From positions 1 through 48,582 of the forward strand of contig JAAZHX010000162.1 in the NCBI GenBank assembly GCA_012510495.1: a stretch of DNA of 48,582 bases. The letters run 5' to 3'. The position numbers and the translations under genes were made by a program. Position 1 is the stretch's first letter. Every line of letters begins with the position of its first letter. Positions 2,742 through 48,582 of this stretch are shown piece after piece. The notes beneath the pieces were generated by a model. That model saw nothing but the letters and a program-made list of their open reading frames with translations. It was not told the origin of the DNA and made no database searches. The stretch comes from Smithella sp. Lineage in GTDB: Bacteria > Desulfobacterota > Syntrophia > Syntrophales > Smithellaceae.

Positions 2742-4397
<1,656 letters not shown>

Positions 4398-7479: not shown

Positions 7480-9291
7480 ATGAACGACAGCAGTATGACC
7501 AAAAACAAGGAGCTCGTCCAGTGGGTAGATGACATGGCCAAAATGTGTAAACCGGAAAAAATTTACTGGTGCGACGGTTCCCAGAATGAATATGATTCCA
7601 TCATCAGGATAGTGGTCGATTCCGGACTTGCGATTCCGCTCAATAAAGACAAGCGTCCGAACTGCTTTCTTTTCCGATCCGATCCTTCCGACGTTGCGCG
7701 CGTGGAAGACCGCACCTACATTGCGGCGAAGACGAAGGACGAAGCGGGTCCCACCAACAACTGGATCGATCCGGGCGAATTAAAGAAAACGATGAAGGGC
7801 CTTTACGACGGCTGCATGAAAGGCCGAACCATGTATGTCATTCCGTTCAGTATGGGGCCGGTGGGATCTCCCATTGCCCAGATCGGCATTGAAATTACCG
7901 ATTCGCCTTACGTCGTCGTGAATATGCACATCATGACCCGCGTGGGCCGGAGAGTTCTGGAAGTTCTGGGCGAAGACGGTGTGTTTATTCCCTGTCTCCA
8001 TTCGGTGGGCAAACCTCTGGCCGAAGGAGAATCCGACGGCCCCGATTGGCCCTGCGCGCCGATTGAGAAAAAATTTATTTCCCACTTTCCGGAAGAAAAA
8101 ATGATCTGGTCCTATGGCTCCGGCTACGGCGGCAACGCGCTTCTGGGGAAGAAGTGCTTCGCGCTGCGCATTGCGTCGGTGATGGCCAGAGAGCAGGGAT
8201 GGATGGCCGAGCATATGCTGATCCTCGGCATCACCAATCCCGAAGGCGAGAAAAAATATATTGCCGGGGCCTTTCCTTCCGCCTGCGGCAAGACCAACCT
8301 GGCCATGCTGATCCCCACCATCCCCGGCTGGAAAGTGGAAACAGTGGGCGACGACATTGCCTGGATGAAGTTCGGCGCTGACGGCAGGCTGTATGCCATC
8401 AACCCCGAAGCCGGTTTCTTCGGCGTTGCTCCCGGCACGTCGCTGGATTCCAATTACAACGCCACGAAAGCGATTGAAAAGAACACGATCTTTACCAACG
8501 TCGCCCTGACAAAAGATCAGGATGTGTGGTGGGAAGGCATCGGTTATGACGCGCCTGCCGGTAAAATCATCGACTGGACCGGCAAGGAGTGGACCAAAGG
8601 CAGCGGCAAAGTTGCCGCTCATGCCAACGCCCGTTTCACGGCCCCGGCCAGGCAGTGCCCCGCGATCGATCCCGACTGGGAAAATCCGAATGGTGTGCCC
8701 ATCAGCGCGTTTTTATTCGGCGGCCGCCGCCCCTCCACCATTCCGCTGGTGCATCAATCGTTCAACTGGAATCACGGCGTATTCCTCGGATCGATTGTCG
8801 GCTCCGAAATCACCGCCGCGGCCATTTCCGCCAACATCGGTCAGGTTCGCCGCGACCCATTCGCCATGCTGCCTTTCTGCGGCTACAACATGGGGGATTA
8901 TTTCCGGCACTGGATCAGTATCGGAACGAAAACATCCGCGGATAAACTGCCGAAGATTTTTTATGTCAACTGGTTCCGCAAGGCAGCGAACGGCGAGTGG
9001 CTGTGGCCCGGCTACGGCGAAAACAGCCGTTTGCTGAAGTGGGTTTTCGAGCGGTGCGCCGGAACGGGCACAGCCAATGAAACAGCGATCGGATACATGC
9101 CGACACAAGACGCGATCGATACGACCGGCCTGAATGTCAGCGCAGCGGATATGAGAGAGCTGCTGGATGTCAACAAAGACGATTGGAAGAAGGAAGTCGC
9201 CGACATTCGCGAACACTACGCCAAATTCGGCGATCGGCTGCCCGTGGAATTAAAAAACGAGCTCGACGCCCTGGAAAAACGCCTGAACTAG
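7480..9291 (+). CDS. pckG: Phosphoenolpyruvate carboxykinase (GTP)
   Basis: It interconverts oxaloacetate and PEP with GTP/GDP, linking the C4 acid pool to gluconeogenesis. The 603-residue length and the motifs are those of the GTP-dependent class: the kinase-1 loop [13 protein letters not shown] near residue 270, the metal-binding [10 protein letters not shown], the stretch [14 protein letters not shown], and [11 protein letters not shown]. An AAGGAG site precedes the ATG. It is flanked by hairpins on both sides and is probably monocistronic. In an anaerobe living on short-chain acids this enzyme would feed biosynthesis. Confidence 0.97.
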
Positions 9292-24265: not shown

Positions 24266-24639
24266 GGAGAAAATCGGATGATCGCGGGCAGAGTTTGCTC
24301 TGCCGGAGGAAAGTCCGAGCTCCACAGGGCAGGATGGTCGCTAACGGCGACCGGGGGCGACCCCAGGGAAAGTGCCACAGAAAATATACCGCCCGGGCGC
24401 AAGCCCGAAGGTAAGGGTGAAATGGCGAGGTAAGAGCTCACCGCTTTTCCGGTGACGGGAAAGGCATGGCAAACCCCATCCGGAGCAAGACCAAATAGGA
24501 GAACGTTTAAGGGCGGCCCGTCTGATGTTCTCGGGTAGTGTCGCTAGAGACGGCAGGCAACTGCCGTCCCAGATGAATGATCATCGCCGCGGCGAGGGTA
24601 ACCGAATCGCGGAACAGAACTCGGCTTATGATTTTCTCC
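24266..24639 (+). ncRNA. rnpB: RNase P RNA, bacterial class A
   Basis: This is the catalytic RNA that matures tRNA 5' ends. The universal core GGAGGAAAGTCCGAGCTCC is near the 5' end, AGAACTCGGCTTAT near the 3' end, and the body has the expected helices, including the ACAGAAA and GGCAAACCCC stretches. The ends are set by helix P1: GGAGAAAATC (24266-24275) pairs exactly with GATTTTCTCC (24630-24639). The RNA ends only 36 bases before the AT-rich R-M island, and no clear T-rich terminator is left, which suggests that the island was inserted at its 3' end. Confidence 0.96.
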
Positions 24640-24675
24640 GCGCCTGCTTTTCATGACGAAATGAGAAAGGATATT

Positions 24676-26013
24676 ATGAAAACATCATTGGATATATTTT
24701 TAAATGAGCTGATTGAAAACACAGGTGTTCAAATTAACAAAGCGTTGTCAGTCGAAAGTTGGCGACACATAATAGCAAAAATCAACGAATATTTTTATAC
24801 AACTTATCCTGGAATCGGGCAAACACAGGCTTTAGATAATGTATTTGAATATTTCTCTGAATTTCATAAATTTTGGGAGCAATATCACGAAAAAATTATT
24901 GATCCCAAAATTGATGAACAAAAATGTATTAAGGTAAGTGAGATATTAAACGGTATCTATTTGGGTAATAAAAAAGTATTTTATGACTTGTACAACACAT
25001 ATACTTTGGCGCCCAACGAGATATGTAAAATAAGATACTTCGCAGCTAATCAAGATTTTCGCGGCACAAGAGATTTCGAGGCTTTATTTAAAAAATATAC
25101 CGATGATCCCACTATTTTTGACATTAATAAAATCAACAAAGGCCCTGAAGATTTTTTAAAAAACATAGGAATAACATCACTCTCACAAAGCGATAAGCGA
25201 ATAAAATATGCTGTTACAGCATCCCAAATTCTTATAGACAAAAAGATTGAACCTTATGATCTTTTTGATTATTTCGATAAAGATTTGCTTAAAATAAGAA
25301 ATTTCTTAATCTCTACCAAAGGATCTGGATTTGGCAATAAAAAGACGGATATGTTTATTAGAGACATGATTGTATTAGACGTTTGGAAACAGGCAAAAAA
25401 TTTTGACAAAATTGATGTCGCCAGTGATATCAATACAATTAAAGTGGCATTACGCACAGGCATAATTAAAACCTCAATCCCTTTAGTATCAAGTTTTCTT
25501 GACATATTTTGCTATCAGTACGGCCTCATAGATAAAATAAGTGCACTAGCGTGGCGAAAAGTGTGGGAAAAATGGAATGCAGCACACCCTGAATCTTGTA
25601 TTGAAAGCCCAAGTTTAATGGATTATTTCGTTTACAGGATAATTGGGAAAGAATTTTGTAAAGAGTCACTGTGTGTGTTCCAATGTGAAAGTGGTGGACA
25701 TGAATTTAAGTGGCATTCCGGGAGAAACAAAACATGTCAAATATGTAAAGACAAGAAGGCATTTGTTATAAAAAAAGTTTTGCCATGTGCCGATATTGAT
25801 GGAAATATTGTTATTAGTAAAAATGAATTTGTTGCGGGTCATAATGCTGTTTTGAAAGGCATTACAAAATGCCCTTTTGCGAGTGTTTGTGATCCTCAGT
25901 CGTCTAATTTTAATAAACTTAATTCTCCAAAATCAATCAGTATTCTTGGACAAACAGGCTGGGAAAGTGCGAGGGCTAAAAAAAACGAAGGTGGCGGCGG
26001 ATTAATGTCTTAA
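24676..26013 (+). CDS. Unknown R-M-associated protein with helix-hairpin-helix-like centre and Cys-rich C-terminus
   Basis: A 445-residue protein from ATG 24676 (AAAGGA just upstream). Not recognised with confidence. Around residues 225-265, FLISTKGSGFGNKKTDMFIRDM followed by an Asp-containing segment recalls the helix-hairpin-helix plus Lys/Asp layout of DNA glycosylases such as OGG1/AGOG. The last 100 residues contain clustered cysteines (CESGGHEF, CQICKDK, CPFASVC), as in a zinc or iron-sulfur site, and end GWESARAKKNEGGGGLMS. As first gene of an operon with a methylase and a MutH-like nuclease, it may be a repair, control or restriction subunit. Confidence 0.55.
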   Translation: MKTSLDIFLNELIENTGVQINKALSVESWRHIIAKINEYFYTTYPGIGQTQALDNVFEYFSEFHKFWEQYHEKIIDPKIDEQKCIKVSEILNGIYLGNKKVFYDLYNTYTLAPNEICKIRYFAANQDFRGTRDFEALFKKYTDDPTIFDINKINKGPEDFLKNIGITSLSQSDKRIKYAVTASQILIDKKIEPYDLFDYFDKDLLKIRNFLISTKGSGFGNKKTDMFIRDMIVLDVWKQAKNFDKIDVASDINTIKVALRTGIIKTSIPLVSSFLDIFCYQYGLIDKISALAWRKVWEKWNAAHPESCIESPSLMDYFVYRIIGKEFCKESLCVFQCESGGHEFKWHSGRNKTCQICKDKKAFVIKKVLPCADIDGNIVISKNEFVAGHNAVLKGITKCPFASVCDPQSSNFNKLNSPKSISILGQTGWESARAKKNEGGGGLMS

Positions 26014-26078
26014 CGAAAACGTGTAGTCCGTATGTCAAAAATAATTTAACATTTAAGCTATATAAAGGAACGCATGTT

Positions 26079-26972
26079 ATGAAATATTTTCCTTCTAGGA
26101 AAAAGAAAGAGCCTCCGATTATGATACGAGAAGAAAGTTCAGAATATTCACCAAATAAGTGTGTTCTCCGAGATGATGAGAATAATGTTTGGTTATATCA
26201 CGCAAATTGTATTGAATTTATGGACATGCTTATAGGGAAATATCCTAACGGTAAATTTGATATGATTTTCGCAGATCCTCCTTACTTCTTATCAAACGGT
26301 GGTATCACCTGCCATAATGGGAAAATGGTGAAGGTAGATAAAGGGGAATGGGATAAATCAAGTGGCCCAAAATTAAATCATGAATTTAACTTATCATGGT
26401 TATCAAGGTCTCAGAAGATCTTAAACCCGAATGGTACTATTTGGGTTTCTGGTACACATCACGTTATTCATTCAGTTGGTTATGCCATGCAACAATTAGG
26501 AATGAAAATTCTTAATGATATTACTTGGGAAAAACCTAACCCTCCTCCTAATTTATCATGTCGATATTTTACTCACGCCACAGAAACAATTATTTGGGCG
26601 GCTAAAAATGAAAAATCAAAACACTGTTTTAATTATGAAAAGATGCGTGAAATAAATGCCGGCAAACAAATGAAAAGTGTATGGTCTTTTAAAACTCCAA
26701 ATGGTGATGAAAAAACTTTTGGAAAACACCCAACACAAAAACCTGTTGCGCTTTTGGAAAGAATAATCGTTGCTTCAACTAATGAAGATGATTTAATTTA
26801 CGACCCGTTTTCAGGTAGTTCTACAACTGGTGTTGCTGCGATAAATACTCTAAGGAAATTTGTCGGTACTGAACTAGAATTAGATTTTATTGGTTTATCA
26901 ATTTCAAGATTGAAACGTGCAGTAGCAACAAGGCAAACATCGCTGAATTTTGCTATTAGTGAGGTTATGTGA
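26079..26972 (+). CDS. Type II DNA adenine methyltransferase, DpnA-like (beta class)
   Basis: A 297-residue N6-adenine methylase. Motif IV DPPYF lies at residues 66-70, followed by SNGGITCHNGKMVKVDKGEWDKS, which resembles the second methylase (DpnA type) of DpnII-like systems. The AdoMet site (YDPFSGSSTTGVAA) comes late, which is the beta-class order, preceded by the HPTQKPVALLERI motif. Its stop overlaps the start of the MutH-like gene by one base. GATC specificity is inferred from this resemblance and from the neighbour, not shown. Confidence 0.9.
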   Translation: MKYFPSRKKKEPPIMIREESSEYSPNKCVLRDDENNVWLYHANCIEFMDMLIGKYPNGKFDMIFADPPYFLSNGGITCHNGKMVKVDKGEWDKSSGPKLNHEFNLSWLSRSQKILNPNGTIWVSGTHHVIHSVGYAMQQLGMKILNDITWEKPNPPPNLSCRYFTHATETIIWAAKNEKSKHCFNYEKMREINAGKQMKSVWSFKTPNGDEKTFGKHPTQKPVALLERIIVASTNEDDLIYDPFSGSSTTGVAAINTLRKFVGTELELDFIGLSISRLKRAVATRQTSLNFAISEVM

Positions 26973-40490: not shown

Positions 40491-40550
40491 ATTCAACGTG
40501 CAGATCAGCGGCGCGGCGCAGCCACGTCCGCCTGGATGCTATGGTTGGAT
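40491..40550 (-). repeat. attC site 1 (distal end of array)
   Basis: Read on the minus strand, both cores are perfect: ATCCAAC (40550-40544) and GTTGAAT (40497-40491). Between them imperfect GC-rich arms (GCATCCAGGCGG with CCGCTGATCTGC) form the hairpin. The last residues of the methyltransferase gene at 40505 are encoded inside it. Confidence 0.75.
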
Positions 40551-41269
40551 GTTTTCCGTCCTCCAAACAGGGCCAGCTCAAAGGTTTTAAAGAAGCAGTC
40601 AACGTCTTGAAAACCAATGTCACGAAGCCATTGGCACTGTTCTTCGACGGCGGCTGGAATATTTTCCTTCTTGTCCTGAAAGAATGCATCTTCGATCTCT
40701 TGCATGGTTACGTTCAACTTGGCATTCTCGTGAAAACGCCGAATATAGTCGAGAAAGAAGCTGTCGAAAAGTTCATTTACTGAAGGGGTAGCTGAACTGA
40801 CCTGATCGAGGTTCAGGAAAATCCCGCCATTTCTGAGAATACAAAAGATCTCGGCGTACAACTCCATCTTTCTCTCATCCGGCTGATGATGAATGGCAAA
40901 CCCCGAGACGATGATATCAAAAGGCTTTTCTGACTCGATACCCTTAGCCCAGTCCGACATTGCAAAATCCGCGTTGATGACTTTTGCACGCTGATTATCG
41001 CCGATTTTTATCCGTAATTTTTCCAGCATAGGATCGGAGAAATCGGCAAATATCACACGTGCTTCAGTATACTCTTCAAGGAGCATGCGGCCGAGAATTC
41101 CATCTCCACAACCCAGGTCCAGAATTCTGGATGGCTGAGGGCACCAGGCGTTTATAATCTTACTGATAACTTCCAGCTGGAGCTTTGCGCCAGGAATAGC
41201 TCCTCGAACCCCTTCCACAAAGGTCTCTGCAATCTCCCTGGTTTGCCACTTGCTGTGCTGTTCATTCAT
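40505..41269 (-). CDS. Class I SAM-dependent methyltransferase (cassette gene)
   Basis: A 254-residue methyltransferase. The AdoMet site is RILDLGCGDGILGRMLLEEY (about residues 48-67), the acidic loop end is VIFADFSDPML, motif II/III is PFDIIVSGFAIHH, and the post-motif NGGIFLNLDQVSS follows. The acceptor substrate is unknown. AAGGAAC precedes the ATG. The C-terminal residues QADVAAPRR are read from the attC site, so the original protein may have ended earlier. This is the last cassette of the array. Confidence 0.85.
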   Translation of the reverse strand: MNEQHSKWQTREIAETFVEGVRGAIPGAKLQLEVISKIINAWCPQPSRILDLGCGDGILGRMLLEEYTEARVIFADFSDPMLEKLRIKIGDNQRAKVINADFAMSDWAKGIESEKPFDIIVSGFAIHHQPDERKMELYAEIFCILRNGGIFLNLDQVSSATPSVNELFDSFFLDYIRRFHENAKLNVTMQEIEDAFFQDKKENIPAAVEEQCQWLRDIGFQDVDCFFKTFELALFGGRKTSNHSIQADVAAPRR

Positions 41270-41282
41270 CTTTGTTCCTTAA

Positions 41283-41341
41283 ATTCAACGCTGTTAATCA
41301 GCCGCGCGCTTCTTGCGTCGGCTGAATTAACCTTGTTCGAC
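41283..41341 (-). repeat. attC site 2
   Basis: On the minus strand the cores are GTCGAAC (41341-41335) and GTTGAAT (41289-41283). The inner arms GTTAATTCAGCCG and CGGCTGATTAAC pair with one extra unpaired T, the extrahelical base typical of attC. The stop codon of the preceding gene lies inside it. Confidence 0.85.
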
Positions 41342-42271
41342 AGCTTTTTCTAAAAGTTCAAAGGTGATCCCGTGTTCCAAAAATACGGGATGCTCGGGTG
41401 CGAATCCCGGTACAGTTTGAAACCCGACTGTTCTGAAAAAGCTCGCCGATGTGTTTCTCGCTACAGTATGAATCCGACGGTACATTCTAATTGATGCGAT
41501 GCGACATAGTTCAGTAACAAGACCGCGACCAATACCTTTCCGTTGATGACTGGAAGTTACTGCCAAATGTCTCAGTTCAATCTCATTCTTGGCTGTCTGT
41601 ACAGCGACCAATCCGCCAATGATCAGCCCATTTTCTTTGGCCGCTAACTCAAGTTTCTCGCCGACTATCTTGAAGTTATTCCTGATATCACGGGGAAAGC
41701 CGAGAGGCTGCCACAGGACACGCCAGAGGAGGTCATCAACCTCTGCGGCGTCAGCCGCTGTTTTTACGACCTCCAGTGTTGCCATACTCAATTTTTGTCC
41801 GTCTCGTGGATGAAACTTCTTCTTCCCAGACGAGTACTCCAATAACTCTCCTCCGCCAATATCAAGAATGCACTCGTCAAGAACCTTATAGCCCAAATGC
41901 TCATAAAATCGCCTTGACGGCAGAGATATGCTCAGACTTAGTTCTGAAATCTTCTGCTCCATCGCTATTTGCTCAAGCTGGGTCATTATGACTTTTCCGT
42001 AGCCTTGCCGCTGATGATCGGGACGTACAAAAACGCCTATTATCTCGGAGACCATCAAGGAGCCGGTTGCCAGAATAGAGCTATCTCGTTCGGATATAAG
42101 AACCAAGATTTCTCCAACTGAGCTTCGCTCGACAATCTTCTTTTCCGAATGGTGCTCTTTAAAAAAAGCAACCGCACGAGGTGGATATATACCAGAATAT
42201 GAAGCATCGATAGTCTCACAAATCATGCGATGAAGAGCATGCAAATCAGTCATAGCGAATGCGCGAATCAT
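41327..42271 (-). CDS. Tandem GNAT acetyltransferase (cassette gene)
   Basis: A 314-residue protein with two GNAT domains. The first has VFVRPDHQRQGYGKVIMTQLE and FYEHLGYKVLD; the second has LAVTSSHQRKGIGRGLVTELC and FFRTVGFQTV. Each RxxGxG/A loop binds acetyl-CoA. The start MIRAFAMTDL (ATG 42271) is typical of GNATs; an ATG 18 bases upstream lies in the attC of the next cassette and is less likely. Acetyltransferases are frequent integron passengers, often for drugs or proteins; the acceptor here is unknown. Confidence 0.85.
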   Translation of the reverse strand: MIRAFAMTDLHALHRMICETIDASYSGIYPPRAVAFFKEHHSEKKIVERSSVGEILVLISERDSSILATGSLMVSEIIGVFVRPDHQRQGYGKVIMTQLEQIAMEQKISELSLSISLPSRRFYEHLGYKVLDECILDIGGGELLEYSSGKKKFHPRDGQKLSMATLEVVKTAADAAEVDDLLWRVLWQPLGFPRDIRNNFKIVGEKLELAAKENGLIIGGLVAVQTAKNEIELRHLAVTSSHQRKGIGRGLVTELCRIASIRMYRRIHTVARNTSASFFRTVGFQTVPGFAPEHPVFLEHGITFELLEKAVEQG

Positions 42272-42287
42272 GATTGTGTCTTCTTCC

Positions 42288-42343
42288 ATAGCTCGGCATC
42301 AGCCGCCGAGGTACGAGGGTCGGCTGCATGCCGTTGGTTAGGC
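42288..42343 (-). repeat. attC site 3, with decayed R' core
   Basis: On the minus strand the first core GCCTAAC (42343-42337) is perfect. The inner arms GGCATGCAGCCG and CGGCTGATGCC pair with one extrahelical G. The expected GTTRRRY at the far end is GAGCTAT, which no longer matches, so excision of the GNAT cassette may be impaired. Confidence 0.75.
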
Positions 42344-42389
42344 ATGATTGGATTTTCTCCACTTTCTGAGTCGCCCCGTAATCCCCTCA

Positions 42390-43136
42390 TCACCGCGTCA
42401 TCAGTGCGAACACGCCCCAGCCCAGGTATTCACGCGTGTAAGCGGCGTAGCGCTCGGGCGCCGAGGTTAGTTTGGCTCGAACCTCTTTCGCGAACTCGTC
42501 GTCGGGATTGGCTTCAAGCCACCGGCGCATGGTGAGCCACTGGGCCGCCTCGTATCTGTCCCAACTGTCTTGGTTTGCTAAAACCATTTCCACGACGTCG
42601 TAGCCCAAGCGGCCGAAAGACGCGAGAAGTTCCGGAAGCAGGAGAAAGTCGGAGATTTTGCCGGCATCACACCCCCTGGCAACATCTTCCGTCGGCGGCA
42701 ACTGCCGCCAGTAGGGCTCGCCGATGAGGAGGATCCCCCCGGGGTGGAGGCTCCGCGCCAGAAGCTCGATGGTGCCGACGACTCCCCCGCCGATCCAGGT
42801 GGCGCCGACACAGGCTGCCACACCGACCTTCTCGTCCGAGACATAACCGGCGGCATCGCCATGGATGAACTTGACTCGATCGGCGACGCCGAGTTCTTCG
42901 GCGCGGAGTTTCGCTTGTGCGGTGAACAACGGGCTCATGTCGATGCCGGTGCCGATGACTCCGTAATCGCGCGCCCAGGTGCACAGCATCTCCCCCGAAC
43001 CGCTGCCGAGGTCAAGCACCCGGGTCCCCGCTTCCAGACGCAGCGCCGCGCCGAGAGTGGCGAACTTTTCGGGTGTGAACGGGTTATGGATGCGGTGAGC
43101 GCTTTCGGTGACGTTGAAGATCCGTGGAATATCCAA
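42390..43136 (-). CDS. Class I SAM-dependent methyltransferase (cassette gene)
   Basis: A 248-residue methyltransferase starting at TTG 43136 with GGAGG nine bases upstream. Motif I is RVLDLGSGSGEMLCTWA (about 39-55), followed by GTGIDMSPLF, VKFIHGDAAGYV and HPGGILLIGEPYWRQL. The C-terminus (WLEANPDDEFAKEVR..YLGWGVFALMTR) is typical of small-molecule methyltransferases, often annotated as UbiE/Coq5-like. The acceptor is unknown. GC content looks higher than in the neighbouring cassettes, as expected for genes of mixed origin in an array. Confidence 0.87.
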   Translation of the reverse strand: MDIPRIFNVTESAHRIHNPFTPEKFATLGAALRLEAGTRVLDLGSGSGEMLCTWARDYGVIGTGIDMSPLFTAQAKLRAEELGVADRVKFIHGDAAGYVSDEKVGVAACVGATWIGGGVVGTIELLARSLHPGGILLIGEPYWRQLPPTEDVARGCDAGKISDFLLLPELLASFGRLGYDVVEMVLANQDSWDRYEAAQWLTMRRWLEANPDDEFAKEVRAKLTSAPERYAAYTREYLGWGVFALMTR

Positions 43137-43177
43137 TGAAGAAAACCTCCTTTCGGGTGTGAATAGATTCGGTCACT

Positions 43178-43236
43178 GCCTAACAACAACATCAGCCGGA
43201 GCGAAGCGATCGGCTGTATTGGCTGGCTGGTTCGAC
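43178..43236 (-). repeat. attC site 4
   Basis: On the minus strand the cores are GTCGAAC (43236-43230) and GTTAGGC (43184-43178, perfect). The central stem CAGCCG/CGGCTG encloses GAGCGAAGCGAT. Its centre is nearly identical to attC 5 at 44143-44197. Confidence 0.85.
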
Positions 43237-43240
43237 AAAT

Positions 43241-44116
43241 TCAGTATCTCTCGATCTCTCCAAAAAGATTACAGAACTTTGAGGCACCATACAAATCGGG
43301 GAACAGGGTTAAATGGTTAATGTTCATCCTGTTCAGTGATTTGAGACAAACCTCCCTGTCCACTGTGGGAATATGAATCTTTATGAGAGTGTATCCCTTA
43401 CCATCGTCTTTAAAGTTGGTTCGAACCCACGACAGCACGTCTATATCAGTAGGAAATCGGCTAAACAACCCTCCCTGATTTACTAACCGCTGATTTTCAT
43501 CGGAAAAAGGCTTAATGAATTCAACTTCTGGCCTAATGGGCATTTCCAATCTATGAAGATATAGTGCATTTTTTACTTTCTTTTTCCCTGATTCAATTTC
43601 TTCCTTTTCCTTTTCACGTTCTTCTTCTGCCTCGCGGTGAATCTTTTTGACCCTCTTCTCTACAGATGGTCTATGAAGTGCATAAACGGCCCTCGCTTTG
43701 GTCTGCTTTTCGCCCATTCCTATAAATGCGAAATAGGCTGCGACAAAGGGAGAGTTTGTCCAGTCAAGCAAAGGCGTAGCAAGTCCATAATGCTGCCCCA
43801 GCGCCCACCAGTCGTTCTCAGCCTCAAGTCTTGGCGGATTTGGGCCTCTGCGCCCTCTCACCGCATATTGAAACTGCTCTAGGTGCTGTTGGATGAAATT
43901 CCTGGTCTTAGTTCTTTTCACTCTTGCTTTCTTTCTGAGCCGATCAAGAGTCGACTCTAAGGGCCAATTGTCGCATCTCTGACCTCGCCAGATATATGTC
44001 TGGTATTCAAGCATTTCTTTTTGGACGTAGTTAAAAAAATAGCGCCAAGAAAGAAGTCGCACTTCTACAAACCCGTCAATAACTGGAGTCTCCTCCCATT
44101 GCTTTCTTCCTGCCAT
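43241..44116 (-). CDS. FRG-domain protein (cassette gene)
   Basis: A 291-residue protein. The FRG domain (named for its Phe/Trp-Arg-Gly motif) is seen in IWRGQRCDNWPLESTLDR (about 42-59) and WWALGQHYGLATPLLDWTNSPFVAAYFAF (about 103-131), the conserved block of the family. A charged Glu/Lys-rich helix (REAEEEREKEKEEIESGKK) follows, then a C-terminal domain. FRG proteins are uncharacterised but often sit on phages and mobile or defence-type islands. The ribosome site is weak. It is followed five bases later by attC 4. Confidence 0.85.
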   Translation of the reverse strand: MAGRKQWEETPVIDGFVEVRLLSWRYFFNYVQKEMLEYQTYIWRGQRCDNWPLESTLDRLRKKARVKRTKTRNFIQQHLEQFQYAVRGRRGPNPPRLEAENDWWALGQHYGLATPLLDWTNSPFVAAYFAFIGMGEKQTKARAVYALHRPSVEKRVKKIHREAEEEREKEKEEIESGKKKVKNALYLHRLEMPIRPEVEFIKPFSDENQRLVNQGGLFSRFPTDIDVLSWVRTNFKDDGKGYTLIKIHIPTVDREVCLKSLNRMNINHLTLFPDLYGASKFCNLFGEIERY

Positions 44117-44142
44117 TTTATCTTACCTTATGTTCACCTCAT

Positions 44143-44197
44143 GTCGAACGGCGAGATCAGCCGGAGCTTAGCGATCGGCTGGATTGACTGGTTGGTC
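44143..44197 (-). repeat. attC site 5
   Basis: On the minus strand the cores are GACCAAC (44197-44191) and GTTCGAC (44149-44143), each one base from consensus. The central stem CAGCCG/CGGCTG with a GAGCTTAGCGAT loop differs from attC 4 by only two bases over about 26. Confidence 0.78.
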
Positions 44198-44198
44198 C

Positions 44199-44477
44199 TT
44201 ATTTTGTTTCTTCAACTAATGTTCCACTGATGAACTTGTGAATAATGCTTGAAACATAAGTCTGATAGGGTAGTCCTTCCCTTACCGCCTTTCGCTGTAA
44301 TTCAAGAAGATCACTTTCGGAAATTCGTATGTTCAGTCTCTTGTCTTTTCGCAAGGTATTCCGTGCATACGTGGCCAGTTCCTTCTTTCTTTTTGCAAGG
44401 TTTGTGACGGGAATCCATTCGCCCTTTTCGAAGCTGTCCAATACATCTTTTTCTTCTTTTGTCAATTTGCCCTTCAT
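44199..44477 (-). CDS. Antitoxin of a BrnT-like TA pair, ribbon-helix-helix type
   Basis: A 92-residue protein; the ATG at 44477 has GGAG seven bases upstream, better than the ATG six bases before. The segment KDKRLNIRISESDLLELQRKAVREGLPYQTYVSSIIHKFISG is a CopG/Arc-like ribbon-helix-helix DNA-binding fold. The N-terminal part would bind and neutralise the toxin. The gene overlaps the end of the toxin gene. Such proteins repress their own operon. Confidence 0.82.
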   Translation of the reverse strand: MKGKLTKEEKDVLDSFEKGEWIPVTNLAKRKKELATYARNTLRKDKRLNIRISESDLLELQRKAVREGLPYQTYVSSIIHKFISGTLVEETK

Positions 44478-44479
44478 AA

Positions 44480-44752
44480 TCATTCTCCAATATATTTCTG
44501 GGTTGCCTTCCTGCTTGGAATAATCGTCTTTAGAAACAACTCTTCCTCATTTTCAACATAGGGGACAAGATAAGCGGAATTGCCAATACCAACAATCATA
44601 ATCCGCTGCCCGGGATATTCCTGTTGGTTAGGATGAAGATAGTCGTCCAGTATGTCGCCTCTCTCAATAAAGAAAACTACGTCCTCAAAACAGACGCCCC
44701 TGGATTCTTTAAGTACAAGGTTCTTTTCGGTATTCCGGTTTATACTCTTCAC
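44480..44752 (-). CDS. BrnT-like toxin (type II TA)
   Basis: A 90-residue protein with the RelE-fold pattern of BrnT relatives: NTEKNLVLKESRGVCFEDVVFFIERGDILDD, then HPNQQEYPGQRIMIVGIGNSAYLVPYVENEEELFLKTIIPSRKATQKY. Members act as ribosome-linked or free RNases. The toxin gene comes first and overlaps the antitoxin start, as in brnTA. TA pairs are common in sedentary integrons, where they are thought to stabilise the array. Confidence 0.8.
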   Translation of the reverse strand: MKSINRNTEKNLVLKESRGVCFEDVVFFIERGDILDDYLHPNQQEYPGQRIMIVGIGNSAYLVPYVENEEELFLKTIIPSRKATQKYIGE

Positions 44753-44815
44753 GAGCGGAGACTATTACATTGTGTGCATTTTGGCAATACAGTGATTTAT
44801 TGATTGATTAAGGCC

Positions 44816-44822
44816 GTTAGCG
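44816..44822 (-). repeat. Truncated attC (R'' core only) behind the 105-residue cassette gene
   Basis: On the minus strand CGCTAAC (44822-44816) follows the sequence CGCCGC, as at the gene-side end of many attC sites, but the rest of the palindrome is missing and AT-rich sequence of the TA cassette begins within four bases. I read this as a deletion joint. Confidence 0.45.
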
Positions 44823-44862
44823 GCGGCGAGTAGCCATCCACTGGACTGCTGGTTTGGCTTCC

Positions 44863-45180
44863 TCAGCGCCAAAATCGTCCGCTTGAGTAAATCCCTCCAT
44901 TTGGGTGCGGTCGCTCGGTGAACTCCCCTCTTGGCAAACCGATGAATTCCTGCGCTCTCTTATCCTCAAGAAACTTGGAGAAGCCGTTTCGCCGCAGTGC
45001 ATGCTCATCTTCATCACGCGTGGGGAACGGCATCTCATCGAACACTCCGCACGTGTCGCCATAGAACACGACAAGCACATCGTCTTCTAGTTTGATCACG
45101 ACCGCCCGGTTCCGCTGGAGGAACTCGACGATCTTGAACCATGGGTTTTCTGCAATTTCTTCTGGTATATCTGTATGCAT
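44863..45180 (-). CDS. Hypothetical cassette protein, 105 residues
   Basis: A small acidic protein (MHTDIPEEIAENPWFKIVEFLQRN, DVLVVFYGDTCGVFDEMPF, GFSKFLEDKRAQEFIGLPRG, ending HPNGGIYSSGRFWR). I recall similar short proteins from integron cassettes, but their function is not known. GGAGACGAA precedes the ATG. No membrane segment or catalytic motif is evident. Confidence 0.75.
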   Translation of the reverse strand: MHTDIPEEIAENPWFKIVEFLQRNRAVVIKLEDDVLVVFYGDTCGVFDEMPFPTRDEDEHALRRNGFSKFLEDKRAQEFIGLPRGEFTERPHPNGGIYSSGRFWR

Positions 45181-45190
45181 TTCGTCTCCA

Positions 45191-45248
45191 GGCCAACGTA
45201 CGGGTCAGTGGGCCCCGCGTAGCCGGGGTACGCTAAAGTCGGTTGTCC
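45191..45248 (-). repeat. attC site 6 (degenerate cores)
   Basis: The outer CAAC/GTTG pair (45194-45197 and 45241-45244) and the inner hairpin CCCCG/CGGGG are clear, with cores GGACAAC and GTTGGCC on the minus strand, each off consensus. Position between two genes and length (58 bases) fit an attC. Confidence 0.6.
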
Positions 45249-45253
45249 AGCTA

Positions 45254-45751
45254 TTACCACCCGAAGAACCCTCTGTTAGCCACGAGGCAAGTAATGATCA
45301 GGGCGCCGGGGATGCCCGCCACTAGTAACATGGCTGGTCCCACATGCTTCAGCCTGGCCATGTTATTGACAATTTCCCACCGATATAACATCCAACGCTG
45401 GGAAAGCACCAAAAAGGTCACGTAAATCCAGATAACGCCTTGTGCAATACCGGCCACAAAGCCGACCGGGTGCTGCAGGAGGATACCAGCAGATGCGAGA
45501 AGTATGAGAGCGCCTTGCACGACCACATCGGCGACCGCCTCCCCTTGCGACATGGCTCCCATGGTTCTCTCCACGGGATCCCGGCTTTTTCGCGAGTCTT
45601 CCTGCAGACGAAGACGCAATGCCGCGTCCCAATTGAGCAGAGATAGCGCTTGACCAAAAATAGTGAACACGCCGCCGCCGACAAACAGCATGGCAAGTAC
45701 TGCCCAGATTCCTATGGGAAACTGCCCAAATTGATGTGTCAGAACATACAT
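45254..45751 (-). CDS. Four-helix membrane protein (cassette gene)
   Basis: 165 residues from the ATG at 45751, which has AAAGGG eight bases upstream. Hydrophobic segments are GIWAVLAMLFVGGGVFTIFG, VVVQGALILLASAGILLQ, GFVAGIAQGVIWIYVTFLVL and AMLLVAGIPGALIITCLV. A cytoplasmic-looking charged loop (LRLRLQEDSRKSRDPVERTMG) separates the first two. No family recognised. Membrane proteins of unknown role are frequent cassette passengers. Confidence 0.75.
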   Translation of the reverse strand: MYVLTHQFGQFPIGIWAVLAMLFVGGGVFTIFGQALSLLNWDAALRLRLQEDSRKSRDPVERTMGAMSQGEAVADVVVQGALILLASAGILLQHPVGFVAGIAQGVIWIYVTFLVLSQRWMLYRWEIVNNMARLKHVGPAMLLVAGIPGALIITCLVANRGFFGW

Positions 45752-45771
45752 ATATTTCACCCTTTCTGCTT

Positions 45772-45836
45772 GCATAACGAAGAGCTAAGGCGGAGCGGCC
45801 CAGCGGGCCGCGATCGGCTTTAGCTCCTTGTTGGCC
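45772..45836 (-). repeat. attC site 7
   Basis: On the minus strand the cores are GGCCAAC (45836-45830) and GTTATGC (45778-45772). The arms GAGCTAAAGCC and GGCTTAGCTC pair with one mismatch, and an inner GCGGCCC/GGGCCGC hairpin caps them. Confidence 0.78.
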
Positions 45837-45840
45837 GATC

Positions 45841-46263
45841 CTATGTCCGATTCAGGATGAAGACTGCGGTTAGCAGAGCAATCTTTCCGGAAAGATTCAT
45901 CGTTGTTCTGTCGAACGGGAATCCGTTTTTGTACTCCGTGTTTTCAGGCGGCTTGTGTTTGAATATCATGGCCGCCTCGCATCGCACTCTGTTCGCGGCG
46001 GGCACTCCGCCAAAGGAGAAGCAGAGTGCATTACCTGTGCGAACGTGCTTCTTCCAGTCATTGTACTTCTCGTGATTCGCGATCCTGTCATGCACATTAT
46101 CCGCCTCGCCAATGTAGATCAACTTGTTGAGGGAAACGGTCTTCTCCTGGGTATTGTGGGTGCATTCATAGACGCAGTAGATGCCCGACTGTGAAGGGAT
46201 GCCTTCCTTGTTCTGATCACGCCAATAACCATCGAACTCGATTTTGTAGGTCTGTTCTGCCAT
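45841..46263 (-). CDS. GIY-YIG-type nuclease-like protein (cassette gene)
   Basis: A 140-residue protein. SGIYCVYECTHN (about 26-37) and KLIYIGEADNVHDRIANHEKYNDWKKH (about 47-73) form the GIY-YIG half-motifs, with the catalytic Arg in DRIANH and a later Glu in RCEAAMIFKHKPPEN. The fold is a small single-strand-cutting nuclease, seen in UvrC and homing enzymes. AAAGGAG precedes the ATG. As a lone domain its target is unknown; a DNA-processing or defence role is inferred. Confidence 0.82.
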   Translation of the reverse strand: MAEQTYKIEFDGYWRDQNKEGIPSQSGIYCVYECTHNTQEKTVSLNKLIYIGEADNVHDRIANHEKYNDWKKHVRTGNALCFSFGGVPAANRVRCEAAMIFKHKPPENTEYKNGFPFDRTTMNLSGKIALLTAVFILNRT

Positions 46264-46289
46264 AGCTTTCTCCTTTCGTTTGATTTATT

Positions 46290-46312
46290 AACCAACGCTG
46301 CAAATCAGCCGC
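46290..46312 (-). repeat. Half attC (R'-L' side only) after the R-M cassette
   Basis: On the minus strand CGGCTGATTTGCAGC leads into the core GTTGGTT (46296-46290), exactly like the right half of attC 2. The mirror-image half (core plus CAGCCG arm) is missing; the endonuclease stop codon lies there instead. Confidence 0.6.
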
Positions 46313-46314
46313 TC

Positions 46315-47445
46315 TCATTCTTCCTCAGCATCTTCTTCATCAGGCTCTTCGTAGTTGAATTCAACTTTGCTTTGGCGGACAATCTCCTCCATCATTGCGC
46401 TGAGGTAGCCTTGAGCAACGCCATTTCGAAAACGTTCTTGAAGTGTCGGAATGTTAATTACTTCTTCAATGCAAGCCATGTATTTGTCAACAATGGCCTT
46501 GATGGAATACTGGCGCTCTGCGCCCTCTTTGAGTTTCTTTAAGAGGTCGTCGATATTGTCCGTTGACTTGATTACAAAGGTAATCGGATATCGCTCAATC
46601 TTATCTATGTCGAGAAAATATTTCCTCACGTCCAGTGTCTCGGTCACTTGAAAGAACCTGCCAAGTGGTTTCATCACGAAATCGATACCGCCGTCATTCG
46701 CATTCGTTCGGCCAGTTTTATAGAGAACTAAGGGAGATTTCTCCAGTTCATCCAGTTGAAAACCGAAATATACGATCTGGTCGTGATAAAAATACTTTAG
46801 GATGGAATAACTCACGATTTCAAAAATTCGGGCGTCCACATTTGGAGCAAGGAGTCCCAAGACAAAATCTTCGACCTCTGCGCCTTTCTTCTTCGTAACC
46901 TCCCTTAGTTTGAGACAGGTTTTGATGAATTCCTCAAACGATGCCTGCTTCATCTCCGAGTAAGCGTCTATTATCTCGACAATCGAAAGAGCGAGATTGA
47001 AAGACTTCCGACCGAGCGATGAAACAATTAGTTTCTCGTTAATCCAATATCGTTTTGTCTCTGCAACACGGAGGATTGGCTGTGCATCAACCTGCGGAAA
47101 AAACTTCCTGAACTCCTCGTTAAGACGATGGTTGAGGGCATGGTTTTGGAGTTTACGTCCAAAAGGTAATTCGCGTTGCCTCTTGAACAATCTGGTGAAC
47201 TGGGCACCTTCGTACTTTGAATAGTCGCCCTTCTTCTCAAACCCATGGTGGATATAGTCCTCAGCCAATACATAAATTGCATAGAGATTGGCGAAGCTAC
47301 TTCTCGCCTTTGAGCCGCGTGTCGCAGAAACAGTCTTGAGGTTGATATATTGAAGCAATGGACTTTTTTCAAAGAGGTCTTCGGCAGCCTCGCCGAAGTG
47401 CTTGGCGAGAATTTTCCTGATTACTGGTGTGAAGTCGTGTTCCAT
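46315..47445 (-). CDS. Probable type II restriction endonuclease
   Basis: A 376-residue protein paired with a YhdJ-like methylase and overlapping its end by 25 bases. I see no named family, but residues 251-269 (DGGIDFVMKPLGRFFQVTE) have the layout of a PD-(D/E)xK core: D255, a short turn, then Q266 in QVT, with E209 in the preceding helix as possible extra acid. The N-terminal 190 residues look helical and the tail is very acidic (EEPDEEDAEEE). Pairing with the methylase makes a restriction role likely; ATGCAT specificity is a guess from the partner. Confidence 0.68.
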   Translation of the reverse strand: MEHDFTPVIRKILAKHFGEAAEDLFEKSPLLQYINLKTVSATRGSKARSSFANLYAIYVLAEDYIHHGFEKKGDYSKYEGAQFTRLFKRQRELPFGRKLQNHALNHRLNEEFRKFFPQVDAQPILRVAETKRYWINEKLIVSSLGRKSFNLALSIVEIIDAYSEMKQASFEEFIKTCLKLREVTKKKGAEVEDFVLGLLAPNVDARIFEIVSYSILKYFYHDQIVYFGFQLDELEKSPLVLYKTGRTNANDGGIDFVMKPLGRFFQVTETLDVRKYFLDIDKIERYPITFVIKSTDNIDDLLKKLKEGAERQYSIKAIVDKYMACIEEVINIPTLQERFRNGVAQGYLSAMMEEIVRQSKVEFNYEEPDEEDAEEE

Positions 47446-48311
47446 TGAGGTCGCCTTTCAAAGATCTTTAATTGCTGCTGGGCAGAGGAATCCTGTTGTT
47501 CATATGTCCTGGGTTCCCGTCGTAGGGCTTCACCATTGTATATTTCCTGAATATTCACGCGGCGAAGTCCGATTTTAATGTACTCCTCCTCAATTTCGAT
47601 GCCGATGGAATCGCGTCCCAGAACCTGAGCAACGTATGAAGTGGTAAACGTACCGGAGAATGGGTCAAGAACTATGTCTCCGGGCTTTGAACTCGCCCTA
47701 ACGATTCTGTCTAAGAGAGCTGTCGGCTTTTGTGTTGGGTGATTTTCGTATTCGTCCATTCGATACCTAACTCTTGGGATGTGCCAGACATTTCCCGGCA
47801 CTTTTTTCGTATTATACATGGTTGGCACAGGTTTTCGGTAATCGATCAATTTCCGAGTTGCTCCGGTCCGTGCTTCGACAAGAATGTCATCAGAGTTGAA
47901 GGTGTAATTGTTTTTATTCTTGACGCAGAACAGGATTGGTTCATATAGCGAACCAAAGTAATTGCGAGCCTGTACCCCTGAACTGTCATATGCCCATACG
48001 ATGCGGGACAGGATGTTGAGGCGTTGACGGAGAAAGATATCGAAGAAAGGCATATTCTGAGTAGCTGTCATCACGTAAAGGCTACCATTGGGCTTGAGTT
48101 TTGAGACGCATAGTTCAAGCCATTGATACGACCATGATAGATATGCCTCGTCGGACGGCCAACGATCCTTGCGACCGTTAAAGTTCTTGCCGATGTTGTA
48201 AGGGGGGTCGGCAAAGACCAAATCGATCGAACGATCAGGGATTTGGGTAGTAAGGGCATCGATGGCATCGCCCCAGATGATTGCATGTCCATTTTTTTCA
48301 AAGAGTTTCAT
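47421..48311 (-). CDS. DNA adenine methyltransferase, YhdJ/AvaIII-like
   Basis: A 296-residue beta-class N6-adenine methylase. VFADPPYNIGKNF puts motif IV (DPPY) at 35-38; SRIVWAYDSSGVQARNYFGSLYEPILF, VPGNVWHIPRVRYRMDEYENHPTQKP and DPFSGTFTTSYVAQ follow closely the E. coli YhdJ sequence, which methylates ATGCAT. The same site is recognised by AvaIII/NsiI-type systems, so ATGCAT is the inferred target. It is the first gene of the R-M cassette. No ribosome site is obvious before the ATG. Confidence 0.92.
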   Translation of the reverse strand: MKLFEKNGHAIIWGDAIDALTTQIPDRSIDLVFADPPYNIGKNFNGRKDRWPSDEAYLSWSYQWLELCVSKLKPNGSLYVMTATQNMPFFDIFLRQRLNILSRIVWAYDSSGVQARNYFGSLYEPILFCVKNKNNYTFNSDDILVEARTGATRKLIDYRKPVPTMYNTKKVPGNVWHIPRVRYRMDEYENHPTQKPTALLDRIVRASSKPGDIVLDPFSGTFTTSYVAQVLGRDSIGIEIEEEYIKIGLRRVNIQEIYNGEALRREPRTYEQQDSSAQQQLKIFERRPQWNTTSHQ

Positions 48312-48358
48312 ATTGCTACCTTATCAGATTGATCTCATGTCTTCTATTATTTTATCTA

Positions 48359-48417
48359 GGCGAACGATTGAACTCAGCAGAGCTGGTCACAGCGTCCGCT
48401 GCAGTGATTGGTTCGCT
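48359..48417 (-). repeat. attC site 8
   Basis: On the minus strand the cores are AGCGAAC (48417-48411) and GTTCGCC (48365-48359). Inner bases pair as CAGCG/CGCTG around two bases, with further imperfect pairs outward. It starts four bases after the stop of the partial gene at the right edge. Confidence 0.7.
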
Positions 48418-48420
48418 GAT

Positions 48421-48582
48421 TTATCCATTCATTTTATCAACTCCCATGCATCCCTGTGAGGTGGTCTGGCCTCTTCGGACAGGGAACAGGGTTTTATAAG
48501 TGTGAAGCTGCTCCGGGTTAATGGTCATGCCGCAGCCTGTTTCTGCGTTTGTGATTTGAAGTAAACCATACTTGGTGTCTTC
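48421..48582 (-). CDS. Partial cassette gene, 3' end only
   Basis: A frame open to the right edge gives the last 53 residues of a protein: it runs EDTKYGLLQITNAETG, then MTINPEQLHTYKTLFP, and ends CMGVDKMNG before TAA. It stops four bases before attC 8, as the array architecture predicts. No family recognised; the rest lies outside the window. Confidence 0.6.
   Translation of the reverse strand, partial: EDTKYGLLQITNAETGCGMTINPEQLHTYKTLFPVRRGQTTSQGCMGVDKMNG

Follow-up and report, generated by a model that had tools for sequence, protein, structure and literature searches.

The right-hand end of the DNA examined here raises the question whether the closely spaced genes and palindromes found there constitute an integron cassette array and, if so, where its integrase is located. 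The whole stretch of 48,582 nucleotides, called the window below, is the complete contig C132 of the bin G000 (2.80 Mb, 332 contigs, 100% complete, 6.56% contaminated). Its last 8 kb, from 40491 to 48582, are occupied by ORFs on the - strand with short palindromes between them, and we consider it almost certain that this region is a chromosomal integron cassette array.

A preliminary description of the window had assigned it to a deltaproteobacterium. In a panel of six genomes, Smithella sp. Gw_SlDig_bin_149 has the most similar DnaG (65% identity) and the other five reach 32-41%, which agrees with this assignment in the old sense of the name. The best reading that this small panel offers is a Smithella-like host. 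Two other regions of the window can be mentioned. The gene for a GTP-type PEP carboxykinase at 7480-9291 is closest to Spirochaetes and Clostridia (up to 77%, vs 65% for Smithella/Syntrophaceae) and has probably been horizontally moved. At 24266-26972, the start of a 478-aa ORF lies within the RNase P RNA match, and a DNA-methyltransferase-like ORF comes next; the two may be a second restriction-modification pair that has been inserted at rnpB.

attC sites and gene content of the array

The attC sites were identified using covariance models built without any sequence from the window. From the family, 19 loci positive for the integron integrase model TIGR02249 were fetched, and 18 attC-like sites picked by eye in 10 of them gave model R1, the row L057:112-168 being left out of its seed alignment as it was aligned one base off. 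Model R2 was built from these loci as well, using 46 matches that include a few weak ones (up to E=0.46), none of which was removed. In the named structure of the 18 R1 seed sites, double changes that keep the pairing occur in 12 of 18 pairs and 90.4% of the cells are paired, against at most 37.4% with the partners slid, counts that are partly so by construction because the sites were hand-chosen. Another option considered was a pattern-plus-fold scan for RYYYAAC...GTTRRRY, but its strict form missed many sites and its loose form gave many chance matches, and the covariance models were used instead.

In the window, five sites reach E<0.01 with R1, lying on a single strand between 41283 and 48417, and a sixth, at the far end of the array, stays above this threshold (Table 1). 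R2 finds seven sites at E<0.05, again on one strand and all within 40491-48417. The next-best match in the rest of the window has E=0.94 with R1 and 1.5 with R2.

Table 1. Genes, attC sites and insertion sequence of the array, with the matches on which each assignment is based.
Feature	Position	Strand	Evidence
attC, final site (integrase-distal end)	40491..40550	-	R2 19.6 bits, E=0.027; R1 E=0.43
SAM methyltransferase gene MT1	40505..41269	-	Methyltransf_25 61 bits, over cut-off
attC	41283..41341	-	R2 23.0 bits, E=0.0047; R1 E=0.0078
Double GNAT acetyltransferase-domain gene	41327..42289	-	Acetyltransf_1, two stretches
attC half-site, one end absent	42298..42343	-	R2 partial 42298-42329, 10.1 bits, E=4.1; sequence
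SAM methyltransferase gene MT2 (widely shared cassette)	42390..43136	-	Methyltransf_31 41 bits
attC	43178..43236	-	R2 45.6 bits, E=3e-8
FRG-domain gene, candidate defence protein	43241..44116	-	Pfam FRG 86.7 bits; PADLOC PDC-S15 304 bits
attC	44143..44197	-	R2 60.1 bits, E=1.4e-11
Two-gene cassette, CopG-like (44199-44483) and BrnT-like (44480-44752)	44199..44752	-	Pfam below cut-off
Degenerate attC	44806..44859	-	R2 22.5 bits, E=0.0058; R1 without match
ORF, 105 aa, function not assigned	44863..45180	-	Pfam, NCBIfam, PADLOC: no match
Candidate long attC, 91 nt, between two ORFs	45191..45281	-	Perfectly complementary 7-base ends; R1/R2 no match
ORF, 173 aa, function not assigned	45254..45775	-	Pfam, NCBIfam, PADLOC: no match
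attC	45772..45836	-	R2 53.7 bits, E=4e-10
GIY-YIG-like gene	45841..46263	-	Pfam 22.5 bits, just under cut-off 22.6
attC half-site	46288..46314	-	Sequence; partial repeat of 41286 site; R1/R2 no match
Type II restriction enzyme gene	46315..47445	-	PADLOC REase_II 507 bits
Adenine DNA methyltransferase gene, partner of restriction enzyme	47421..48311	-	NF008572 454 bits, over cut-off; PADLOC MTase_II 439 bits
attC of further cassette, cassette cut by insertion sequence	48359..48417	-	R2 31.9 bits, E=4e-5
3' end of multi-copy IS3-type element; contig end inside	48457..48582	-	Identical stretches on C295, C282, C26, C188, C139

The ten gene/attC junctions of the preliminary description, all in a single orientation, are present between 40491 and 48417, the cassette genes being on the - strand throughout. 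Its two truncated attC sites are likewise found, as the half-sites of Table 1, while its count of eight attC palindromes has to be modified. Six supported sites (those starting at 40491, 41283, 43178, 44143, 45772 and 48359) have both the AAC/GTT cores and complementary end boxes; the site at 44806 is supported by R2 but is degenerate, with the AAC core missing at its left end, and the candidate at 45191 is not supported. The lengths of 55-65 bases given there hold approximately for the supported sites (54-65 nt) and not for this last candidate. When folded as single-stranded DNA, three of eight sites give z<=-1.9, two lie between -1.1 and -1.5, and three fold no better than shuffles; folding energy alone is a poor discriminator of attC and counts as weak evidence. 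On the basis of the model structure and the cores, the sites are predicted to act as attC.

We count nine cassettes in the array, each made up of one gene or a gene pair and an attC (some of these decayed), and part of a tenth, all of them reading away from the expected integrase side. If the known integron mechanism applies, the cassettes would have been added singly by IntI acting on folded single-stranded attC. What they carry is typical accessory cargo: an FRG candidate defence protein, a type II restriction-modification pair, two methyltransferases, a double GNAT protein, and the CopG-like and BrnT-like genes as a probable toxin-antitoxin pair. For the restriction enzyme there is neither a Pfam table entry nor an NCBIfam or solved-structure match, and among 51 family genomes it is found in one, that is, in none other than G000. 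Judged by their family names, several of the cargo genes are candidates for a role in defence.

The G+C content of the cassettes ranges from 0.41 to 0.63, compared to 0.515 in the left 40 kb of the window, and no Rfam family matches the array at gathering score. A chimeric assembly join may be present near 40.4 kb. The symporter adjoining the array gives matches of 45-47% in six members of the genus and one partial match of 34%, so sparse that the chromosomal flank of the array is not comparable across relatives.

The integrase side

We now turn to the location of the integrase, which the preliminary description expected, from the orientation of the array, just past the right edge. The orientation argument holds. 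Among the related intI loci, 15 have some attC match, and in 12 of these attC lies upstream of intI, on the intI strand in model orientation; the same layout places the integrase side of the array at the right. The loci L051, L052 and L053 deviate from it, and four of the 19 loci have no attC match. In L051 and L052, attC is on the other side of intI and in the opposite orientation.

The integrase itself, in contrast, is not where it was expected. The contig ends 126 bases into the IS3-type element and holds no integrase or attI, the integrase side lying beyond the assembled end; the window gives no IntI match, and the N-terminal parts of nine related IntI proteins have no similar stretch in it. 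Nor does the bin contain an intact intI, its top TIGR02249 match having 87.5 bits vs a cut-off of 265. As assembled, the array is thus a CALIN, that is, an attC cluster without integrase: at least two attC lie less than 4 kb apart, the widest gap between supported sites being 2.5 kb (45836-48359), and no intI is nearby, as seen over the 165 bases between the last attC and the contig end.

From 48457 onwards, the window shares an identical sequence with five other contigs (C295, C282, C26, C188 and, over 45 bases, C139), located at their ends or close to them, and the flanks that precede this shared element are unrelated among the contigs. A related copy, L093, has the C-terminal end of a transposase there, with the domains HTH_21, rve and rve_3, a combination that we take to denote the IS3 family; the same C-terminal motif can be read in the window on the - strand. 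Integron surroundings are seen at four of the six copies: attC is ca 40 bases from the element in the window, ca 105 in C295 and ca 135 in C139, and in C188 an intI remnant lies ca 0.5 kb away. In the stretches fetched around the element in C282 and C26 there is no attC. These four copies are at 48457-48582 of the window, C139:1-45, C295:22645-22773 and C188:4241-4361, and in three arrays the element reads in the cassette direction. A join of the window and C188 across one copy of the element was considered and rejected, as both border the same end of it.

Since the contig end on the integrase side falls in a repeat, the array could belong to a complete, working chromosomal integron, with integrase and attI beyond the insertion sequence and lost only through the repeat-broken assembly. 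Consistent with this, TIGR02249 is over its cut-off in 30 of the 51 family genomes, and draft genomes are described, in the accessible text of PMC9024848, as inflating the number of integrase-less arrays. However, the bin is rated 100% complete and yet has no intact intI. Also, attC sites are found at E<=0.01 in at least 49 of the 51 genomes (with up to 110 candidates scored per genome), and of the 21 genomes without intI over the cut-off, at least 19 have attC and at least 18 have four or more, including G014 (ca 10 contigs) and G015 (ca 30 contigs). A complete integron is therefore possible but somewhat doubtful.

Further evidence against it comes from two intI remnants in the bin, which point to decay in this lineage. 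The first, C133:1694-2035, is 64-72% identical to the nine related IntI over 99-110 residues; it has one in-frame stop, lacks the catalytic part, and is adjoined by two attC. The second, C188:3646-3765, was compared using N-terminal residues restored from the reading frame and matches all nine IntI N-termini tested, seven of them directly (39-45 residues, 51-59%) and those of L056 and L064 inside longer, weaker alignments. In addition, the region that precedes intI on its upstream side in L056 and L062 is matched by C188:3864-4022, and the genes engB and hdrA adjoin the remnant, their order being that seen behind the intact intI in G045. Because of this shared order, C188 looks like the orthologous integron platform after decay. 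The two decayed platforms in the bin are separate, one at C188 (L068) 3646-4022 by engB/hdrA and the other at C133 (L019) 362-2035 by two attC. A second group of IntI in the family (L049-L054, L063, L065-L067) is 36-41% identical to the C133 remnant.

IntI-like matches were also obtained on C231 and C299 (L017 and L018), 3.2-kb contigs in which a tyrosine recombinase overlaps or abuts a transposase-like ORF. They were rejected as integrases, with the integron-specific stretch (model positions 178 to ca 241) unmatched and the transposase-like ORFs alongside; these elements are possibly IS91-like.

On balance, we lean towards the integrase having been lost rather than merely unassembled. The loss is no more than probable, because the bin is fragmented and 6.56% contaminated, and an intact copy of intI may reside in unbinned sequence. 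With less certainty, we infer that the host's own integrases have decayed, which would leave the array frozen or dependent for any movement on an integrase supplied from outside. One can speculate that in this family cassettes outlive integrases, with many lineages retaining arrays although they lack an intact intI and a few cassettes, above all MT2, still circulating across genera, and that, since IS3-type copies are upstream of three separate arrays in this genome (window, C139 and C295) and read in the cassette direction, an insertion sequence now serves as promoter in place of the decayed platform. We consider this scenario quite unlikely.

Single cassettes in related genomes

The preliminary description had proposed a comparison of cassette content between related strains or bins. 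The array DNA was searched in the 51 family genomes at E<=1e-20, five candidates being scored in each, and at least 28 of them, G000 included, give matches. Outside the array itself, the matches listed are single cassettes or pieces. The MT2 cassette has long matches in at least 18 other family genomes, at 82-92% DNA identity, and two more short pieces of its end occur in G025. The toxin-antitoxin cassette is present in at least nine family genomes (73-81%), with a 177-base piece in G035, and the GNAT cassette in at least one other, G010 (L214), at 81% DNA identity and with attC at both ends. A 95-base piece of the array is among the matches listed for G038.

In total, 27 recurrence loci were examined (17 with MT2, nine with the toxin-antitoxin pair and one with GNAT), a split copy in G040 and the short pieces being left out. 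In none of the 27 do two cassettes that are neighbours in the window occur together. Two weak extra matches at these loci, an FRG protein at 28% and a methyltransferase piece at 35%, were set aside as distant relatives rather than window neighbours. Within 200 bases, attC is found at both ends in nine loci, at one end in four and at neither in 14, one of the latter (L205) being cut by a contig end. The toxin-antitoxin pair stays together in eight of its nine related loci. The array beside the intact intI of G045 carries the MT2 cassette as well, with 88.8% identity over 904 bases and ends inside attC on both sides.

The cassettes thus recur one by one, the order not being kept, and MT2, toxin-antitoxin and GNAT occur separately and independently in other arrays, as mobile cassettes do. 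It is also important to note that the identity of MT2 does not track the genus: the copy in G008, a member of another genus, is 92% identical, while those in G045 and G039, which share the genus, reach 89% and 82%, respectively, a pattern that favours its lateral spread. Two outcomes had been named beforehand as speaking against an integron. The first, that covariance models score no palindrome as attC, did not occur: the models score the sites. The second was the lack of an integrase in the genome combined with the same gene order in distant relatives, and here the first half is what we find, as far as the bin goes, while the second is not, none of the 27 loci keeping a window neighbour.

Finally, one might read the region as a defence island in which unrelated palindromes (terminators or REP-like repeats, for instance) separate the genes, given the resemblance of several of these to defence genes and the sites that fold no better than shuffles. 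This is extremely improbable, as the attC models of the relatives match sites at gene junctions only and on one strand, the same type of site adjoins verified intI in relatives, and homology to other genomes extends over one cassette at a time, with attC on at least one side in 13 of 27 cases.

Relation to known integrons

The cassette array is a further example of a well-known gene-shuffling system and leaves the integron concept unchanged. What it adds is that the Smithella-like family joins the lineages with near-universal integron arrays, and that the single cassettes shared across genera, clean cases of their kind, can help to follow how cassettes flow and integrases decay in anaerobic communities.

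Integrons of such bacteria had been called little described. For the Deltaproteobacteria or Desulfobacterota in general this does not apply, with an intI clade (PMC2426708), an attC model (PMC8352920) and Desulfobacterota integrons (PMC8618304) in print, as far as the accessible text of these papers goes. For Smithella or Syntrophus it does, in that no description of their integrons was found in the open-access literature; the accessible text of PMC2669170 mentions Syntrophus as ribotypes. The literature considered here also includes PMC12772301.

Judged by the same portions of text, the array shares with the three cases above the broad host group, the integrases and the short attC, and differs from them in that those name Geobacter, while the present host belongs to a Smithella-like family. 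The CALINs from metagenome bins, to the extent that PMC9668308 could be consulted, are similar in that attC clusters with spacings below 4 kb occur in fragmented bins and lack intI; here, the host is bacterial and two intI remnants are present in the same bin. Xanthomonas, in the accessible part of PMC12444791, is alike in its chromosomal integrons with inactivated intI, CALINs away from the platform and cassette transfer between species. It belongs to another phylum, however, and in the present case the platform remnants are found on other contigs than the array, which is capped by an IS3-type element.
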